Notes under the pieces: model-generated | Told to the model about the DNA's origin: nothing | Seen by the model: only the letters and a program-made list of their open reading frames with translations | Databases searched by the model: none | Source: Nitrospina sp. | GTDB lineage: Bacteria > Nitrospinota > Nitrospinia > Nitrospinales > Nitrospinaceae | Reading direction: 5' to 3' | Assembly (NCBI GenBank): GCA_004357435.1 | Contig: SMVS01000071.1 | Location: 1-39,890, forward strand | DNA: 39,890 nucleotides | Shown here: positions 26,662 to 35,884 of the stretch, one piece after another | How the letters are laid out: each line of letters opens with the position of its first letter | Position numbering within the stretch: position 1 is the first letter of the stretch | Made by a program: the position numbers and the translations under genes

Positions 26662-29235
26662 CTAAGCGCCAGCCTGGCGCAGGGTCTTGATGGGCTTGTT
26701 GTTCAGGACATCGAGACTGCTCAATATTCCTGTGGCCGTGGTCAGGACCACCGCGAACAACCAGGCCCAGACCAAAGGCATCAGGCGGAGGTGCCAGGGC
26801 GACTTCACGATATACTCCATCACGGCCCAGGACAGGCCGACCGACAGCACGACCCCGATGAAACCCGCGATGATTCCCAGTGTGACGTACTCATAGCCCA
26901 GAATGAAAGCCACCGTTTTGCGCGTAGCGCCCAGCGTTTTGAGCAGGGCCGCTTCCTTGAGCCGCCGGAACTTGGTGGAAGCCACAGCGCCTGACAGAAT
27001 GAACAATCCGCAAGCGATGGTGAAACCCGACATGAAGTCGACCAGCGTCAGCAGTTTGTTCACCACGGATTCTATCGTGTCGACAATGTCGCGGGTGCTG
27101 AGCGCGGTCACGTTGGGCAGGGCGTCCACCACTTCCTGTTGCAGTTCCTGCTCCTTGTCACGCGCAACGTAAACGGTGCTGACGAACGTGATCGGCGCTC
27201 CCGCTAAGGCGCCCGGCGAAAATATCATATAGAAATTGGTGCGCATGTTGCGCCAGTCCACCTTGCGGATGCTGGTCACCGTCGCGGTCACCGGGAACCC
27301 TTGGATATCCATTGTGAGTTTTGATCCCAGTTTGGCGCCGATGCGCCGCGCCGCGTCCTGTTCCATCGAAACCAGCGAAGCTTGCGCTTCCTCGGGGGTC
27401 CACCAGGTGCCCGCCACCACCTGGTTGCCGTGGCCCGGTGCCTCCGTTCTATAGGTCAAAACAAATTCCCGATTGATGAACCACTCTTCCCGCGGGCGGT
27501 TCTTAAATTGCCATTGATCTGCCCGGCGGCCATCAATGCTGACAAATTTAGACCGCACCAGCGGAGTCAGTTCTTCTTTCGCTTTCGGGGCAACACGCCG
27601 GACCACTTCCTGATAGGTTTCGGTCTGGTCTTTTTGGATGTCGATGAAAAAATAATTCGGGGGCCGGTTCTCGGTATTTTGATTCAACATGGCGATCATA
27701 TCCATTTGCACCAGGCGAAGCGTGAGCACCAGCATGATCCCCATGCCGAGTGCGGTGATGATCGACACCGCCTGGTTGTTGGGACGGTACAGGTTGGCGA
27801 GGCCGTAACGCCGCGTCATGGAGGCCGGCGGCGGCAGGCGGCGCAGGATTTTCAGAAACACCAGTGAGATGCCGGCCAGCAGTCCGGCGGAGACCCCCAG
27901 GGCCAGCAGGAACACCGCGCCGCGCTGAATGGATTCAGCTTGCCAGAAAATTATAGCGGCCAGCCCCGCCAAAAACAGCGTCCCCATCGTCCACCTTTGC
28001 CAGCGCGCTCCGCGCCCCAGCTCCTCCTCTTCGGCGATGTGCCGGAACAATCGCAGGGGCGGCGTTTTCACCGCGCGGATCAGCGGCCACATAGTGAACA
28101 GCAATGTGGTGAGCAATCCCAACAACAACGACTGCACCGCCGGCCGCCACAAAAATTCCGGTTCCACGGAAAGGGTCAGCAATCCAGCCAGTTTGGATGG
28201 CAACAGGTATTGCAAGCCGTATCCGGCCAATACGCCGAGCCCACTCCCCGCCAGGCCCAGCAACAGGGCTTGTATAAGGTAAATGAAAAGTATGGTGCGT
28301 GATGTAGCGCCCAGACAGGTCAGGATGGCGATGGTGTCGAGTTTCTGCGACATGAAAGTACGAATGATCATGGCCACGCCGATGCCGCCCATCAACAGAG
28401 CGATGATGCCCACCGCGCCAAGGTATTGCTCCATGCGTTCGATGGAGTGAGTCAGGGAGGACTCCATGTCTTTGTAAGTGCGTATGGAGGCGGCCCGGTC
28501 CGTCAACCCGCGCTCAAGCAGCGCCAGGGCCCTTTCCAGATCGGCTCCTGCGGGAAGCCGAATCAATGTTTTGTGCTTCACCCGGCTACCGGGAGCGATC
28601 AACTCCGCCCGGTTCAAGGTGTCCGCTGAGACCATCACCCGTGGTCCGATACTGAAGGCGCGTGAGATGCGGTCGGGCTCGGCATCTATGATGCCAGAAA
28701 TTTTCGCCTGGACCGATCCCAGTTGAAAATCATCGCCCACCACCAGCCCGGTCTTCAACAGAAAATTTGGCTCGACCAGGGCACCGCCATCGGCCAGTAA
28801 AGTATCGAGAGCGCCTGCGGGCCGGGTTTCGATTTTGCCGTACAAGGGATACAGCGGGGCCGTCCGGGGCACGGATTTCAATTCCACCAGCAGGCTGGCC
28901 TTGCGCTGGGAGGTGGCGGATGGGAAGCGAACCATAGCGTGCAGTTCCCGCACGAACAAAAATTCTGTGCCGGCCGGTAAGATCTTTTGTTGGGTGGCGC
29001 GGTCTTCCGGGCTCTGCGGCCAACTGCTCTTGATTGCAATGTCAGCCGCCAGCAGACCCTTGGATTCGCGTTGAATGGATTGTTTCAGAATATCGGAAAA
29101 ACTTTTGATGGTCATCACCGCGCCGACGCCGATGGCCAGGCAGATCACGAAAAATATGAAGCGCCGCCCGGCGCCACGGGTTTCCCGCAACGCCAGTATG
29201 AATAATTGCGCCAACGTTAACTGCCGGGTGGTCAT
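26662..29235 (-). CDS. FtsX/MacB-type ABC transporter permease (YbbP-like)
   Basis: This 857-residue inner-membrane protein has a first membrane segment at about residues 24-45. Then comes a periplasmic domain and an FtsX domain near 265-375 (ending LGATSRTILFIYLIQALLLG). Central membrane segments and a second large periplasmic domain follow. A second FtsX domain lies close to the C-terminus (LKTLGATRKTVAFILGYEYV). This double layout is that of YbbP-like permeases, of which the substrate is unsettled, rather than LolC/E. Its start overlaps the stop of the ATPase gene by four bases (ATGA), so the two form one unit. A GCGCCAG-C-CTGGCGC palindrome (26666-26680) lies over its last codons. Confidence 0.85.
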   Translation of the reverse strand: MTTRQLTLAQLFILALRETRGAGRRFIFFVICLAIGVGAVMTIKSFSDILKQSIQRESKGLLAADIAIKSSWPQSPEDRATQQKILPAGTEFLFVRELHAMVRFPSATSQRKASLLVELKSVPRTAPLYPLYGKIETRPAGALDTLLADGGALVEPNFLLKTGLVVGDDFQLGSVQAKISGIIDAEPDRISRAFSIGPRVMVSADTLNRAELIAPGSRVKHKTLIRLPAGADLERALALLERGLTDRAASIRTYKDMESSLTHSIERMEQYLGAVGIIALLMGGIGVAMIIRTFMSQKLDTIAILTCLGATSRTILFIYLIQALLLGLAGSGLGVLAGYGLQYLLPSKLAGLLTLSVEPEFLWRPAVQSLLLGLLTTLLFTMWPLIRAVKTPPLRLFRHIAEEEELGRGARWQRWTMGTLFLAGLAAIIFWQAESIQRGAVFLLALGVSAGLLAGISLVFLKILRRLPPPASMTRRYGLANLYRPNNQAVSIITALGMGIMLVLTLRLVQMDMIAMLNQNTENRPPNYFFIDIQKDQTETYQEVVRRVAPKAKEELTPLVRSKFVSIDGRRADQWQFKNRPREEWFINREFVLTYRTEAPGHGNQVVAGTWWTPEEAQASLVSMEQDAARRIGAKLGSKLTMDIQGFPVTATVTSIRKVDWRNMRTNFYMIFSPGALAGAPITFVSTVYVARDKEQELQQEVVDALPNVTALSTRDIVDTIESVVNKLLTLVDFMSGFTIACGLFILSGAVASTKFRRLKEAALLKTLGATRKTVAFILGYEYVTLGIIAGFIGVVLSVGLSWAVMEYIVKSPWHLRLMPLVWAWLFAVVLTTATGILSSLDVLNNKPIKTLRQAGA

Positions 29236-29912
29236 GAGGCGGGATTCACGAAATCGTTGACGATGCGGCCATCGGCCAGGGTCAGAACCCTTTCCGCGCG
29301 TTCGGCGATGTGAGCCTCGTGCGTGACCAGCACGATGGTGGCCTTTTTTACCCGGTGCAACTCGGCGATCAGGCCGATGATGTGTTCGCTGTTTTTGGAA
29401 TCAAGGTTGCCGGTTGGCTCGTCGGCCAGCACGATGTCGGGTTCGTTGACGAAGGCGCGGGCCAGGGACAGGCGTTGTTGTTCGCCGCCCGAAAGCTGGG
29501 AGGGATAGTGATGCAGGCGGTCCTCCAGCCCCACCACGCCCAACAGGTTTTTTGATCTATTATGGGCGTGGTCCGCCCCGTTCAGTTCGGCGGCGAGAAT
29601 CACGTTTTCCAGGGCAGTCAACGTTGGGATGAGGTGAAAGTTTTGGAATATGAATCCGAATCGGCGGCCGCGGAGCAGGGCCAGTTCATCCTCATTCAGT
29701 TTCGTGATATCCTCTTGGTCGATCACGATGGACCCGCTGGTGGGAGCGTCCAATCCGGCCATCAGGCTCAGCAGGGTGGTCTTGCCGCTTCCCGAAGGAC
29801 CGGTCACCGCCACGAACTGGCCGTCGGGGATCGTCAAATCGATATCGGTCAGAATGTCCACCCGGTGGCCACCGCCGTGCAGGGATTTGTTCAACTGGCT
29901 GATCTGGATCAT
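29232..29912 (-). CDS. ABC transporter ATPase (YbbA/LolD family)
   Basis: The 226-residue ATPase powers the permease encoded directly downstream. Walker A is GPSGSGKT at residues 38-45, the ABC signature LSGGEQQR starts at residue 140, and Walker B with its catalytic Glu165 is in [11 protein letters not shown]. The length and the GNLD sequence place it in the MacB/LolD/YbbA group of mechanotransmission exporters. It diverges from a TesA-like esterase gene across a repeat-bearing gap, matching the E. coli ybbA-ybbP/tesA layout. Confidence 0.92.
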
Positions 29913-30041: not shown

Positions 30042-30156
30042 CGTGCCACTGGCCGGGCGTGGCCCGGAGCAAATAGGTCGAACTCAGATTTGTGCTCAAT
30101 GATTATGAGGCATGGTTTCAGAGTTTGGCCCTCTGCCTCCCCTGCAAGGGGTCGGG
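30042..30156 (+). repeat. Dispersed intergenic repeat, copy A
   Basis: This stretch aligns with the reverse complement of about 35098-35212. Shared words include the 13-mer GCCCGGAGCAAAT (30062-30074) and CTGCAAGGGG (30142-30151), in the same order and near-equal spacing, with small gaps between. It contains its own short palindromes (CCGGGC...GCCCGG and CCCTGCAAGGGG), so it could fold as RNA. It has no open frame. The core recurs in part right after it. Confidence 0.7.
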
Positions 30157-30317
30157 CAAGGCCCGGAGCTGAATGGGTTACACGGCACTTGCGTGCAACA
30201 ATGATTTAACATAATCCCAAGGTGTTGCTGGGCCTAAATAATTCCCCCTTTTTGAAGAGACCTTTGCATAGCCTGAAAATTATGGATCGGTGGGTCGCTT
30301 CGATGGGAAACCGATGA

Positions 30318-30351
30318 GCTCCCCCTTCTCCGAAGGGGGCTGGGGGGCTTT
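30318..30351 (+). repeat. C/G-rich palindromic repeat, copy 1
   Basis: The element contains CCCCCTTCTCCGAAGGGGG, a hairpin, followed by CTGGGGGGCTTT. The same arrangement occurs in inverted orientation at 34956-34989. It ends about 15 bases before the esterase start, so the mRNA leader of that gene would contain the hairpin. Similar C/G-run elements are common between genes of many bacteria; that statement is from memory. Confidence 0.6.
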
Positions 30352-30366
30352 CTCCTTGGAGTGTTT

Positions 30367-31080
30367 ATGGATTGTTCATCTTATGCAAAGCTTTCGTTGG
30401 CAGTACCCAAAGTCTTCGGTAGACTTTTCCCGCGCGTCCATGGGCCTGTCGGCAGGAACTACTTCCAGCGGATCATGGCGGGGCTGGCGCTGGTTTTTTT
30501 CTGTGGAATATCAACCCCTGTATTGGGAGAACCCGTGATCCTTGCGTTTGGAGACAGCCTCACCGCTGGCTACATGGTCGGCGAACAACACAGTTATCCA
30601 GCGCGCCTGCAGGAAATTCTGCAGGCCAAAGGCTATCCGCACAAAGTGGTCAACGCCGGGGTGACCGGCGACACCACGGCCGGCGGAGTGCGCCGCATCG
30701 ACTGGTTGCTCAAGCATCAGCCCAAAATTGTGATCCTCGAATTGGGCGCCAACGATGGCCTGCGCGGATTATCGGTGGCCGCCATGGAAGCTAATTTGGC
30801 AACCATCATCAAAATTTGCCAGGCCAACCATGCCCGGGTCCTGCTGGCCGGTATGAAAGCCCTGCCCAACTACGGTAAAGAGTACAACCGGGAATTTGAA
30901 GCCGTGTTTACCCGGCTCGCCGAAAAACACAATCTGCCGCTCATCCCGTTTTTTCTCGCCAACGTCGCCGGTATCCAAAAACTGACCCGCCCCGACGGCC
31001 TGCATCCCGTCGCCGCAGGCTACGCCATCGTCACCCAGACCGTCTGGCAATACCTCGAACCCATGCTGGCGCAGAAATAA
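30367..31080 (+). CDS. tesA: SGNH-family arylesterase/lysophospholipase (TesA-like)
   Basis: The product is a periplasmic or secreted SGNH hydrolase acting on thioesters, aryl esters or lysophospholipids. Block I is FGDSLTAGY with nucleophile Ser64, block III GAND contains Asn129, and block V DGLHP supplies Asp210 and His213 (numbered from ATG 30367). A hydrophobic signal segment, IMAGLALVFFCGISTPVLG, precedes the domain. The start is uncertain: ATG 30367 follows GGAG closely, while ATG 30475 would give a more standard signal peptide length but leaves out the basic residues before it. Divergence from a ybbA/ybbP-type pair supports the TesA assignment. Confidence 0.85.
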   Translation: MDCSSYAKLSLAVPKVFGRLFPRVHGPVGRNYFQRIMAGLALVFFCGISTPVLGEPVILAFGDSLTAGYMVGEQHSYPARLQEILQAKGYPHKVVNAGVTGDTTAGGVRRIDWLLKHQPKIVILELGANDGLRGLSVAAMEANLATIIKICQANHARVLLAGMKALPNYGKEYNREFEAVFTRLAEKHNLPLIPFFLANVAGIQKLTRPDGLHPVAAGYAIVTQTVWQYLEPMLAQK

Positions 31081-31092
31081 GAAATACCGGTA

Positions 31093-32187
31093 TCACCTGC
31101 AGGCTTGGACATACTGCATAAGTTGATTCTGACAAGTTCCCTTGTTAAGGATTTTCCAGGCGGTGGCGGTTGCCGTTGGGAGGTCGGGCAGGATGCCGAA
31201 CAGGTGGCACAGGGTGCCTGCCTGGTGGGCGATCATCGGGGCGGCGGGACCGGTGCCGTCTTGTAACGCCTGCTCGCCCAGTTGTGCCAGCGATTCACGT
31301 GTCGCCGGAATTTTTTTCAAAGCCTTAAACGCGTCGCCGATTTGCCGGGCGGTGGCGCTGTCGTACAGACTTTCATAATCGAGTTTCTTTTCCGCCACTT
31401 GTTCGCCGCCGGATTCGACAAACACTTTGCCTTGTTTGTGGACGCCGAACAAGGTGCCGCCTTCCATACCGTTGCCGATGGCCACGCTGTCGAATTTGCT
31501 CAACTTCGCCACGGCCAGCATGGACACTTCATAACCGGGATGAAAGTAATTGGTGGCCAGATAATTTTTTTCAGCTTGGAGCGGCAACAGCATTTTTTCC
31601 AAGGTGGCCAGCATGGGACGCTTCACGATTTCCACGCGCAGGTCGCGCAGGCTTTCCAGTGGCGGATGGCTCTGCCGGGTGCTCAGGTATCCAAATTTGA
31701 ATTTTTCGATGAGTTCTTTTCTTTTTTCGAACGGTTGCTCCGCCGCCACTCGATAATGGTTGACCAGCAGGTCTTCAAAGGTGATGCCGAACTTGGGCGG
31801 CAGGGGCAGGGTGGAGTGGCCGTAGGCCGGCAGGCCCATCGCGGCCAGCACTGGCAGAGCGTAAAATCCAAAATAAGGCACGCGGTTGAAGCCGTCGAAG
31901 GCGTCCGCCACCTGCAGGAGGCACGGCAGGCTCACCGATTGTTTCACCGTGGTGTCGTCCAAAGCCCGCCAGTAGCCGATGTTTTCCGCGACGGTTTCGA
32001 GTTTCATCCGGGCGGCGATCAGAAACAGCGCGGAGCGCACCTGGGACACCTCGCCGTTCAATATCATGCGCAGACCGTCTGCGGCTTCCAGCTCGGTCAG
32101 GTCCTTGCTCATTTTTGGTCCGGTGGCGATCTTGACCAGGTAGGTCTTCATGCGTTGGTCGGCTGGGATGGATGAAATTTCATTCAT
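31093..32187 (-). CDS. TrpD2-like protein (anthranilate phosphoribosyltransferase-related)
   Basis: The 364-residue product has the helical N-terminal domain of the glycosyltransferase 3 family (KDLTELEAADGLRMILNGEV, then ALFLIAARMKLET) and the C-terminal GMEGGT-type loop. The PRPP-binding GTGGD motif of true TrpD is not found; the aligned place reads ADAFDGFNR. This fits the TrpD2/YbiB group, which in E. coli binds nucleic acid instead of making tryptophan. No trp genes are nearby. I start at ATG 32187; GTG 32208 would add seven residues. It converges on the esterase gene with a 12-base gap. Confidence 0.7.
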   Translation of the reverse strand: MNEISSIPADQRMKTYLVKIATGPKMSKDLTELEAADGLRMILNGEVSQVRSALFLIAARMKLETVAENIGYWRALDDTTVKQSVSLPCLLQVADAFDGFNRVPYFGFYALPVLAAMGLPAYGHSTLPLPPKFGITFEDLLVNHYRVAAEQPFEKRKELIEKFKFGYLSTRQSHPPLESLRDLRVEIVKRPMLATLEKMLLPLQAEKNYLATNYFHPGYEVSMLAVAKLSKFDSVAIGNGMEGGTLFGVHKQGKVFVESGGEQVAEKKLDYESLYDSATARQIGDAFKALKKIPATRESLAQLGEQALQDGTGPAAPMIAHQAGTLCHLFGILPDLPTATATAWKILNKGTCQNQLMQYVQACR

Positions 32188-32246
32188 AGACTTGGGCTCT
32201 GGCCTCACGGCCTCATTTAGAGTAGAATAGCAGTTTCATTTACCTA

Positions 32247-33968
32247 ATGGATTATATGCCTGAAACGGAAATAATTGAACCGCCTAAAAAGACCCGACGG
32301 CGGCCGGTGAGCGTCTTGTTGACCTACCCCAGCACCAACGACGTGGCGCTGGCCAATCTGGGATTTCAACGGGTGTACTCTCTGCTCAACCAGATTGACG
32401 GCGTGACCTGTGACCGGTTCAGTTTGCCGGTTGGTTGGGACCCGGAGACGTCGCAGTTGAAATCCGACCAACTGCGCTCGCATGATTTGGGCCGTCTCCC
32501 CGGCGATTTTGACATCATCGCGTTTTCCATTTCGTTCGAACCGGATTATCTCAACACGGTTCTCATCTTAAAATATTTCGGCATCCCGCTGAAGCGCACG
32601 GCGCGGGACCGCCGGTACCCGTTGATCGTGGCCGGCGGCTCGGCGCTGTTCATCAATCCGGAGCCACTGGCGGACGTCCTCGACCTGTGTTTCATCGGCG
32701 AAGGGGAAGGACTGGCCGAACGATTTTTTGATCTGGTCACTCACTCGGACTGGGACGACCCGCGGCAATTTCTTCCCGAAGCGGCGCAACTCAGTGGGAT
32801 CTACGTTCCACAATTCTATCATCCGGTGTATGAAAAAGACCGGCAGGTCGCTCTCCGGGCCGAACCGCAGGTGTCCGCACGGGTGGAACGGCATTGGGTG
32901 GCGGAGGATTCGCCCGACCTGTGTACGCATTCGGAAATTCATGATGAAGTGTCGACCTTCAAGGACATGGCGTTGATGGAGGTGACACGCGGGTGCATTT
33001 GGGCCTGCCGGTTTTGCACGGCGGGGTTCATTTACCGGCCCCCGCGCGAGCCTAATCTGGAAACCACCTACAACTCGCTGGCCAAAGTTTTAGACGAGCA
33101 GGGCAAGGGCGCGTCGACCATCGGGTTGGTCGGCCCGTCGGTGACCGATCACCCGCAACTGCTTCCGTTGGCGCGGCGGTTGGTGGCGGAAGGCAAAAAA
33201 CTGTCGTTTTCGTCGCTTCGTATGGAAACACTCACCGATGAGCTGGTGGATCTGATTTTGAAGAGCGGACAGAAGACCCTCACCATGGCGGTGGACGCTC
33301 CGTCCGAACGCATGCGCGACGTCATCAACAAATCCGCGAGCGATGACTTCATCATCGACAAGTGCCGTTTCCTGACCGAGAAAGGCATCCTGCATTTGAA
33401 AATTTACTCCATCATCGGCCTGCCCGCCGAGGAGGACGAGGACATCGACCAGTTCATCCGGCTGGTGGAGAACATCCAAAAGGTGTATGTCGAGGCCTGC
33501 CGCAAGCGCGCCAGCATCGGCACGGTGACCATCAGCCTGAGTCCATTGGTGCCGAAACCGGGCACGCCGTTTCAGTGGCATCCCATGGAAGCGGTGACGA
33601 TCCTCAAGAAAAAGTTCATGAAAGTGCGCAAGGCGCTGGGCCGGCTCCCTAACATTCAACTGAGTTTCGGCTCGCCCAACGAATCCTACCTGCAAACTTA
33701 TTTTTCGCGCGGGGACCGGCGGGCCATGAGTTTTTTTGAAGAATACCTGGCCAACGGGCACGACGCCAAGGCGGCGTTGCAGGCCGCCCAGCCGCATCCC
33801 GATCAGTTCGTGTACCGGCAATTCCAGAAAAAAGATTTTCTGCCGTGGGACATCATCGACCACGGTTACTTCGCCGATTTTCTCTGGCAGGATTATCAGC
33901 GCGGTTTGCGTCAAAAGCACACGCCTGTGTGCGACACCGCCACCTGTAAAATCTGCGGCATCTGTTAG
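32247..33968 (+). CDS. B12-binding-type radical SAM protein
   Basis: The 573-residue product has an N-terminal cobalamin-binding-like domain (SVLLTYPSTNDVALANLGFQ; the AFSISFE and IVAGGSALFINPEPLAD segments). A radical SAM domain follows with the cluster motif Cys250-x3-Cys254-x2-Cys257 (CIWACRFC). The C-terminus carries a second cysteine group, CDTATCKICGIC. This layout is that of the widespread uncharacterised family whose members are often fused or adjacent to a DUF2344 domain; that partner is not visible here. The reaction is unknown. It is followed after 25 bases by a CDP-alcohol phosphatidyltransferase gene, suggesting cotranscription. Confidence 0.82.
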   Translation: MDYMPETEIIEPPKKTRRRPVSVLLTYPSTNDVALANLGFQRVYSLLNQIDGVTCDRFSLPVGWDPETSQLKSDQLRSHDLGRLPGDFDIIAFSISFEPDYLNTVLILKYFGIPLKRTARDRRYPLIVAGGSALFINPEPLADVLDLCFIGEGEGLAERFFDLVTHSDWDDPRQFLPEAAQLSGIYVPQFYHPVYEKDRQVALRAEPQVSARVERHWVAEDSPDLCTHSEIHDEVSTFKDMALMEVTRGCIWACRFCTAGFIYRPPREPNLETTYNSLAKVLDEQGKGASTIGLVGPSVTDHPQLLPLARRLVAEGKKLSFSSLRMETLTDELVDLILKSGQKTLTMAVDAPSERMRDVINKSASDDFIIDKCRFLTEKGILHLKIYSIIGLPAEEDEDIDQFIRLVENIQKVYVEACRKRASIGTVTISLSPLVPKPGTPFQWHPMEAVTILKKKFMKVRKALGRLPNIQLSFGSPNESYLQTYFSRGDRRAMSFFEEYLANGHDAKAALQAAQPHPDQFVYRQFQKKDFLPWDIIDHGYFADFLWQDYQRGLRQKHTPVCDTATCKICGIC

Positions 33969-33993
33969 CGCATCCTGAAACTTCCATTCCGCC

Positions 33994-34884
33994 ATGGCAT
34001 CGACACCCCACTTTGAAAAAATGCACAAACTGCCGGAGCCATGCCGGTTCTTCGACCTGAACGCGTTGTGGTATTTCCCCAACCGCTGGGTGGTGCGCGT
34101 TTTGTATCCCCTGCCCATCTCCGCCAACCAGATCACTTTGCTGGCGCTCATGGCGGGGCTGGCCGCAGCGGGGTTTTATGCTTTCGGCGGGGAGCGGGCC
34201 TTCTTTTTTGGCGCGGTGTTCCTGTACGGCAAGCTGTTCCTGGATAATGTGGATGGACCGCTGGCGCGTTTGCGCGGTGAGGTGTCGCGGCTGGGACGTT
34301 TTCTGGATTCGTTTGCGGATTTCACGGTGGCGGTGGCGGTGTATGGCGCCATCACCTGGCGGCTGGCGCAGAGTTCACCGAACCCGGCATTCCTCTGGGC
34401 GCTCGGCATTTTAGCTTTGCTGAGTGGGTTACTGCAATGCAGTTACTGGGTATTTTATTACGTGCATTACGCGTCAAGAGTGGGCGCCTATGAAAACAAC
34501 CGCACCGATGAAACCGTGACCGAACAGGACCGGCAAGCGGCGGTGGCGGGCGAATTGCCGGGCCTCGTACTTTTTCTGCAGAAATTTCACAACGCCGCTT
34601 ACGGCTGGCAGGACCAGGCTGTGGCCATGTTTGATGGCCTCAGCCGTAAACTGGCCGGTGGGGCCGGCGCGCCCGAACAGCCGGACCGCTGGTACGCGGA
34701 CAAAACTTTTCTGGTTTGGATGGGCCCCCTGTGCGTCTGTAGCAACACCATGGCCCTCATTGTGTTTTCCCTCATCGGCCAGCTCGAATTGTTTTTATAT
34801 CTGGTGGTGTTGCTCGGCAACGGTTATTTGATCGGATTGCAGGTTTGGAAAATTGCTCGATACAAGAGTGCCGTTGGTCACTAA
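33994..34884 (+). CDS. CDP-alcohol phosphatidyltransferase family protein
   Basis: These inner-membrane enzymes join a CDP-linked lipid or alcohol to a second alcohol to make phospholipids or related phosphodiesters. The full family motif is present: Asp84, Asp87-Gly88, Ala91-Arg92, Gly101, Asp105 and Asp109 (DNVDGPLAR, then LGRFLDSFAD). Several hydrophobic segments flank it, including one near residues 46-66 and others near 138-155 and 245-285. The 296-residue length is greater than PgsA or PssA, and the middle soluble loop (residues ~165-225) is unusual. The substrate is not predictable. The start codon is not strongly supported, but the frame is certain. Confidence 0.82.
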   Translation: MASTPHFEKMHKLPEPCRFFDLNALWYFPNRWVVRVLYPLPISANQITLLALMAGLAAAGFYAFGGERAFFFGAVFLYGKLFLDNVDGPLARLRGEVSRLGRFLDSFADFTVAVAVYGAITWRLAQSSPNPAFLWALGILALLSGLLQCSYWVFYYVHYASRVGAYENNRTDETVTEQDRQAAVAGELPGLVLFLQKFHNAAYGWQDQAVAMFDGLSRKLAGGAGAPEQPDRWYADKTFLVWMGPLCVCSNTMALIVFSLIGQLELFLYLVVLLGNGYLIGLQVWKIARYKSAVGH

Positions 34885-34889
34885 ACTCA

Positions 34890-34905
34890 GCGGTGAACCG
34901 GGTCA
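34890..34905 (+). repeat. 16-base direct repeat, copy 1
   Basis: GCGGTGAACCGGGTCA occurs here and again, identical, at 35076-35091, 186 bases downstream. The two copies bracket the C/G palindrome and a CCGCGTCCTCTGCGG segment. Direct repeats of this sort can mark insertion or duplication ends. Confidence 0.7.
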
Positions 34906-34955
34906 CCCTTCGACCGGCTCAGGATGACAGGAGACGTCACCCGTGTTTATCTGTG

Positions 34956-34989
34956 AAATCCCCCCTGCCCCCTTCAAGAAGGGGGAGCC
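34956..34989 (-). repeat. C/G-rich palindromic repeat, copy 2
   Basis: Read on the minus strand this is GGCTCCCCCTTCTTGAAGGG followed by GGCAGGGGGGATTTC. It matches the element at 30318-30351 in order and size, with changes in the loop that keep the hairpin paired. Conservation of the stem with a changed loop suggests the fold matters. Confidence 0.6.
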
Positions 34990-35075
34990 ATTGTTTTCTC
35001 CCAGTGAATTCTGGCCCAATAAATTGGGCAACTACACAAAACCTGTATTCTTCGCTTGCGCCCTCCGCGTCCTCT

Positions 35076-35091
35076 GCGGTGAACCGGGTCA
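35076..35091 (+). repeat. 16-base direct repeat, copy 2
   Basis: Identical to 34890-34905 (GCGGTGAACCGGGTCA). It is preceded by TTGCGCCCTCCGCGTCCTCT, a string I recall as a frequent intergenic repeat in unrelated bacteria; this was not checked. Confidence 0.7.
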
Positions 35092-35097
35092 TGCTTC

Positions 35098-35212
35098 GCC
35101 GCCCCTTGCAGGGAGGCAAAGGGTTGAACCTTGGAGTTATGCCTGGAAACTACTGAGTGCCAGCAGGAGTTCGGCCCCATTTGCTCCGGGCTTTGCCCGG
35201 CTGGCCGTGCGC
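35098..35212 (-). repeat. Dispersed intergenic repeat, copy B
   Basis: The reverse complement of this stretch aligns with copy A at 30042-30156, including the shared 13-mer (here 35179-35191) and CTGCAAGGGG (here 35102-35111 on the minus strand). It begins within about ten bases of the LON gene stop codon at 35219-35221. The order of short palindromes is the same as in copy A. Confidence 0.7.
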
Positions 35213-35218
35213 CGAGCA

Positions 35219-35884
35219 CTAATTCATGCGGACGTCGTGTCCCGATTTGGCCAAGGTTTTGGATTGCTGAACGATGGCGATTTTGAGTTGCAGGTGAGAC
35301 ATCACGGTTTGGTGACGTTTGAGGGCGTCCGGTTCTTCGACCAACTGCTGTTGCTGGTGGGGCGGCAGTTCCAACAAGTAGGCCAAAAGGTCGACCACCT
35401 CGCCGAGAGTGTCGCTCCCTGACAACTCCAGCTCCGCAATTTGCGGGTTGGTATCCGGTAGGAGTTCGGTGAATTGCTGGTAGGTGTTCATCAAGCGCAC
35501 CATCTCCGGATCATTTTCTGCATACGGACGGTCGTTGATGGCGGGCAGAAGTTCCACCTCCGCCTCACGGAACGGGCGATCTCCCACCTCGCGAACGACC
35601 CGAAAGCGGCTTTGTCCGCGCAGGAGAATGTTGTATTTGCCGTCCTCCAGCCGATCCCACTTTTCCAGGTTGCCAGCACAGCCGATGGGTTTGATCGCCG
35701 GACCGCCAAAGTATTCTTTCTCATAACCCGGCTCCAAAAGGACCATGCCGATCCATTGCCCGGATTCAATCGAGTGGGCCACCATATCCCGATAGCGGGG
35801 TTCAAAAATGTGCAGAGGCAGGACGGTTTTCGGATAAAAAACTGACGCAGGCAGGGGGAACAGCGAAATGCGTTTGGTTTCCAT
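35219..35884 (-). CDS. LON substrate-binding domain protein
   Basis: The 221-residue product is a stand-alone Lon N-terminal (LON/PUA-like) domain: ISLFPLPASVFYPKTVLPLH, FEPRYRDMV and the PIGCAGNLEKWDRLEDGKYN segment match the family, followed by a helical C-terminal part with VVDLLAYLLELPPHQQQQLV. There is no ATPase or protease domain, so it is not Lon itself. Such proteins are common and their function is not established; binding of unfolded proteins or peptides is inferred from Lon. The start METKRISLFPLP is firm. Confidence 0.85.
   Translation of the reverse strand: METKRISLFPLPASVFYPKTVLPLHIFEPRYRDMVAHSIESGQWIGMVLLEPGYEKEYFGGPAIKPIGCAGNLEKWDRLEDGKYNILLRGQSRFRVVREVGDRPFREAEVELLPAINDRPYAENDPEMVRLMNTYQQFTELLPDTNPQIAELELSGSDTLGEVVDLLAYLLELPPHQQQQLVEEPDALKRHQTVMSHLQLKIAIVQQSKTLAKSGHDVRMN

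Follow-up and report, generated by a model that had tools for sequence, protein, structure and literature searches.

A family of paired-hairpin repeats with exchanged terminal hairpins in Nitrospina and related Nitrospinota

Introduction

The window, a stretch of Nitrospina sp. DNA analysed here over its full 39,890 nucleotides, contains a non-coding unit of about 115 bases at 30042-30156 that recurs in inverted orientation at 35098-35212. A sequence-only reading of this DNA proposed that the unit might be either a non-autonomous element or a structured RNA of this lineage, which raises the question of how widely it occurs, whether its structure is conserved and how it spread. Only two copies in the genome, or a match to a known repeat or RNA family, was what that reading had set against its own proposal.

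Two inverted copies in the window

Copies compared side by side follow a common plan of about 100 bp, consisting of a first hairpin (H1), an arm, a central stem, the inverted arm and a second hairpin (H2). H1 has a 6-bp stem and a 3-nt loop and is followed by a tag (GGAGC, GGAGGC or GGACTC), then AA and the arm, and H2 has a stem of about 5 bp with a GCNA or GCA loop. A covariance model built from 17 copies (R1) recovered the inverted pair, with bounds agreeing to within about 10 bases. Copy A occupies 30052-30151 on the forward strand (95.7 bits, model positions 1-101, E = 2.5e-20 in the window) and copy B 35102-35201 on the reverse strand (76.1 bits, model positions 1-101, E = 7.5e-16 in the window). 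Both are full length, align in opposite orientations and contain the two shared words first reported, GCCCGGAGCAAAT and CTGCAAGGGG; they are the only full copies that R1 identifies within the window. Copy A is located in the divergent gap between genes for an ABC-transporter ATPase (29232-29912, reverse strand) and a GDSL lipase (30361-31080, forward strand), and copy B in the convergent gap between genes for a CDP-alcohol phosphatidyltransferase (33994-34884, forward strand) and a LON-substrate-binding-domain protein (35219-35884, reverse strand), all named by Pfam.

In copy A, H1 (CCGGGC-GTG-GCCCGG, 30053-30067, forward strand) is defined by sequence, fold and helix covariation over 144 aligned copies. 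The central stem (30076-30130, forward strand) is formed by pairing of the arm GGTCGAACTC (30076-30085) with GAGTTTGGCC (30121-30130) around an inner hairpin, as judged from the fold and from centre helices that are 70-78% paired across copies, and H2 (CCCCT-GCA-AGGGG, 30139-30151, forward strand) was read from the sequence and corresponds to helix 5 of the model. The partial duplication of the core noticed after copy A is a truncated second unit arranged head to tail (repeat D2 in the sequence, about 30152-30211, forward strand), comprising an H1 hairpin, TCGGGCAAGGCCCGG, and the 5' half of the core. In copy B, sequence and alignment to R1 place H1 (CCGGGC-AAA-GCCCGG) at 35186-35200, about 18 bp beyond the stop codon of the gene at 35219-35884, and H2 (CCCTGCAAGGGG) at 35102-35113, both on the reverse strand.

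Other repeats were noticed in the window. At 30257-30395 lies a second possible miniature element, in which the outer inverted repeat, formed by CCTTTGCATA ... TATGCAAAG, encloses a CCCCCTTCTCCGAAGGGGG hairpin; CTTTGCATA sequences are also found at further loci of Nitrospinota (L156, L193). A CCCCCTT..AAGGGGG hairpin repeat at 30321-30339 and 34968-34986 represents a separate intergenic repeat class, for which 315 kb of sequence from the same genome gave 26 matches, counted by strand. Furthermore, the direct repeat CGGTGAACCGGGTCA adjoins copy B (34886-34912 and 35072-35098), and these are its sole two matches in the same 315 kb.

Copy number and phylogenetic distribution

Used as a DNA query against the 1.76-Mb MAG from which the window derives (72% complete), copy A matched about 40 places at E<1e-3, and R1 matched all 150 scored candidates there, nearly all of them at full length, which together exclude chance. 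The MAG therefore contains at least 150 copies, not two, and a local search gave further weak copies. Many copies are arranged head to tail with a period of about 100 bp, as in C92 (167-267-369-462). The element is palindromic, its 3' end approximating the reverse complement of its 5' end, and is thus also weakly detected on the opposite strand. No match to a known family was obtained in Rfam, either at the gathering threshold or at E<=0.5.

In other genera, R1 also detects diverged cousins, from which a second model (R2) was built. R2 matched in 42 of 77 Nitrospinota genomes, all belonging to the order of the window's genome, with at most 52 candidates scored per genome, so that the counts are lower bounds; in other orders of the class, none of 13 genomes matched. 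Named records carrying elements include Nitrospina, Nitrospinaceae and other Nitrospinota. Copy number can be very uneven within a genus: in genus g4, two genomes have no copies, one has a single copy and four have at least 50. An origin from phages or plasmids was considered and rejected, as no similar DNA was found there. In genome G044 (L060, L082), one copy is very close to a copy of the window's genome, and 45 matches compare with one to three in its genus mates; contigs from a related organism may be mixed into this MAG.

Structural conservation and hairpin modules

Among 144 aligned matches, 96% of the H1 cells and 95% of the H2 cells were paired, and each base pair of both hairpins showed double changes. 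Over the whole structure, 422 double-change cells were counted, compared with 153 in shuffles and 50-97 with partners slid by one to three columns, counts that lean towards the model to which the alignment was fitted. A first, model-free alignment gave the same result (36 double-change cells compared with 15.5), and cousins from other genera display the same covariation pattern. The folding advantage of single copies over shuffles is only moderate, and the case for structure therefore rests on covariation. Together with the order-wide distribution, this covariation strongly supports a structured, non-coding and lineage-specific family, as the sequence-only reading had envisaged. Nested arrangements also occur, such as a full element inside an outer hairpin pair, GGCA|ACC..GGG|TGCC, as do half elements ending in ..GCTCAA|CC.

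H1 is drawn from a small set of exact alleles, namely CCGGCGAAGCGCCGG (21 copies), CCGGGCAAGGCCCGG (20), CCAGGTTGCACCTGG (8), CCAGCGTGACGCTGG (7) and CCAGCCTGCGGCTGG (7), which stay identical while core identity averages 59%, and an exact 22-base H1 module heads quite different cores over much of Nitrospinota. A clear tie of H1 type to core lineage was sought but is only weak, with 40 of 108 nearest neighbours sharing a type compared with 26 by chance. Of 99 distinct places with the CCAGCGTGACGCTGGAC hairpin, 11 have the trinucleotide GGC ahead of it (one base further left), compared with an expectation of 1.5 under equal trinucleotides.

The exact 22-base H1 module RCCAGCGTGACGCTGGACTCAA was also found in six Clostridia records (L144, L165, L185, L188, L198, L201), where it is commoner than chance would suggest. 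An explanation of these matches as tRNA 3' ends holds for only one of the six, which lies directly at a tRNA 3' end.

Position at gene ends

With ORFs of at least 120 or at least 160 codons called by a simple greedy rule in place of a trained gene finder, 68% or 80% of the copies, respectively, lie in ORF-free DNA, compared with 19% or 23% of random positions. Among the 32 H1 ends located within -2 to +17 of a stop codon, 15 begin exactly at the upstream stop, giving junctions of the form TAA|CC or TGA|CC (e.g., TAA|CCGGCG). This abutment departs from a uniform spread with p = 2e-8, or p = 7e-5 if an A is needed to the left, both values treating copies as independent and applying to a distance range chosen after looking. 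The stop codon itself could be dismissed as part of the element, since gene-distant copies lack it and the AspS gene described below keeps its natural end. The ends of some genes lie within an element (loci L096, L098, L100, L110, L127), and a short C-terminal stretch of their products thus appears to be repeat-encoded.

Gain and replacement at orthologous loci

Of the 30 AspS loci read, nearly all encode closely similar C-terminal residues, and an element follows the stop codon only in the window's genome, being absent in 29 relatives. The AspS orthologues document one lineage-specific gain.

At a first, convergent junction common to Nitrospina species, the core is kept and H1 reads CTACTCGGCGTAG, CCACTAGGCGTGG or CCACTCGGCGTGG depending on the species. 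One species has an older half, CTACTAGGC, followed by a new hairpin, GCCAGCGTGACGCTGGACTC (CTACTAGGC|GCCAGCGTGACGCTGGACTC), and another has CCGGCGAGCCGCCGG between the stop and an old hairpin and has lost the core. The same kind of H1 change was found at a second Nitrospina junction, including CCGGC|ACCAGCGTGACGCTGG|CCGG. H1 is thus replaced at orthologous sites while the element persists, and is sometimes spliced into an older hairpin. H2 of the first junction exhibits a compensatory change between Nitrospina species (GTCC..GGAC compared with ATCC..GGAT), and core divergence at this junction approximates that of third codon positions, which gives no case for strong selection on the core sequence. 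This in-place exchange of terminal hairpins is the most unusual feature of the family. Neither it nor the stop-codon abutment had been seen in the sequence-only reading. The original observation is real, and larger than first described.

Origin, maintenance and relationship to known repeats

Of the two options originally proposed, the non-autonomous element is the better one, since the dispersal, the tandem arrays, the uneven copy number within a genus and the lineage-specific gain at AspS all fit it; a mobilising enzyme or a clear target duplication was not found. Y1_Tnp was detected nowhere in the 72% complete MAG. Aligned flanks revealed no consistent target duplication, and a close empty site for each copy is lacking. 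We consider it reasonably probable that these repeats form a new REP-dimer/REPIN-like non-autonomous family that spread in the past by means of a trans-acting enzyme, exchanged its hairpin caps and persists mainly behind stop codons. Under this proposal, the elements would have spread as hairpin-forming single-strand DNA, with the mobilising enzyme presumably supplied in trans, and the hairpins would have been exchanged by ectopic template switching or gene conversion between copies. The elements would persist mainly just after stop codons, where transcribed hairpins could cap mRNA 3' ends.

Alternatively, the elements could primarily be cis-acting RNA structures selected at mRNA 3' ends, where they would block exonucleases or slow translation termination, and only secondarily be repeats. 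The hairpins that begin exactly at stop codons are consistent with such a role, as are the retention of an element at one junction that several Nitrospina species share and the compensatory changes in its H2. Furthermore, E. coli REPs, to which the Nitrospinota elements are similar in their proximity to stop codons, have been reported to stall ribosomes when located within 15 nt of the stop (PMC12306157). However, copy A sits between divergent gene starts, copies form tandem arrays, genomes of the same genus manage without elements and the core changes roughly as fast as third codon positions, and we regard a primary role as cis-acting RNA as unlikely.

It is also conceivable, albeit with rather low probability, that quasi-palindrome correction, in which template switching perfects imperfect hairpins, produced the covariation incidentally, and that the covariation reflects neither function nor recognition. 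Such correction would be expected to yield perfect stems of changing sequence, and half-replaced hairpins were indeed seen, but the re-use of a few identical hairpin alleles across cores and genera would remain unexplained, as would the stop-codon abutment. Equally speculative is the possibility that the hairpin-plus-tag modules of about 20 nt are themselves mobile units, which would enter existing hairpins (after ..GGC) and sites exactly behind stops by a process that is guided by structure and linked to single-stranded DNA or translation termination, re-capping resident elements in place.

REPINs or REP doublets of Pseudomonas are inverted pairs of small hairpins of about 100 bp that are intergenic, form tandem clusters, number hundreds per genome and contain a structured spacer with compensatory changes (PMC3116915). 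All these features are shared by the Nitrospinota family, in which two inverted REP-like hairpins flank a pairing spacer, and could suggest true REPINs, with a RAYT (Y1 tyrosine transposase, IS200/IS605 superfamily) as the mobilising enzyme. Contrastingly, Y1_Tnp is missing not only from the MAG but also from eight further genomes (G007, G023, G024, G027, G028, G036, G039, G049) and is absent from most element-rich genomes, whereas G015 has one and no elements, a distribution on which a RAYT association was rejected. The hairpins also lack the GTAG tag and are not clearly tagged with CGTC, and the family differs further from REPINs in having several interchangeable H1 alleles per core and an H1 that is swapped at orthologous sites. 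True REPINs are thus a very improbable explanation, and the family was not filed as such because most element-rich genomes lack a Y1/RAYT transposase. CGTC-tagged REPs resemble the Nitrospinota elements in combining a hairpin with an unpaired tag, in forming inverted dimers without a dedicated transposase and in lying near gene 3' ends, but have stems of 8-9 bp that begin with A-T pairs and mostly CCA tails (PMC3733652). The combination of a CGTC, TGTC or CCTC tag with such a stem and a CCA tail was not found in the Nitrospinota family, where stems are 5-6 bp and G+C-rich and the tag, GGAGC, GGAGGC or GGACTC when read inward, precedes AA; CCTC or CGTC does occur as some H2 tags, but these stems match neither in length nor at their base. 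Double hairpin and other repetitive elements of mitochondria likewise have two hairpins, complementary stem substitutions and tandem copies, but are shorter and lack both a conserved core of about 70 nt and stop-codon abutment (PMC2800124).

It is highly improbable that the elements are MITEs derived from a DDE-type transposon, with their arms serving as its terminal inverted repeats: long terminal inverted repeats are present in elements of about 100 bp with intergenic dispersal, but the flanks revealed no consistent target duplication, no partner transposon happened to turn up in the loci fetched and the terminal hairpins are swapped around a retained core. ERIC/IRU-type palindromic MITEs are imperfect palindromes of about 100-130 bp that are intergenic and non-coding. 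The Nitrospinota element fits this description, but its host lineage is unrelated and its terminal hairpins vary as modules.

A published description of the family was found neither in Rfam nor in the open-access literature searched, and such repeats go unmentioned in the Nitrospina gracilis genome paper. The REP-dimer-like, non-autonomous family that we favour occurs across the marine nitrite oxidisers of the genus Nitrospina and their relatives, with at least 50 copies in several genomes. It offers a natural series in which the same element at the same locus carries different hairpin caps, and this series makes it testable by strain comparison how REP-like hairpins spread in the absence of a dedicated transposase and why they are placed at stop codons.
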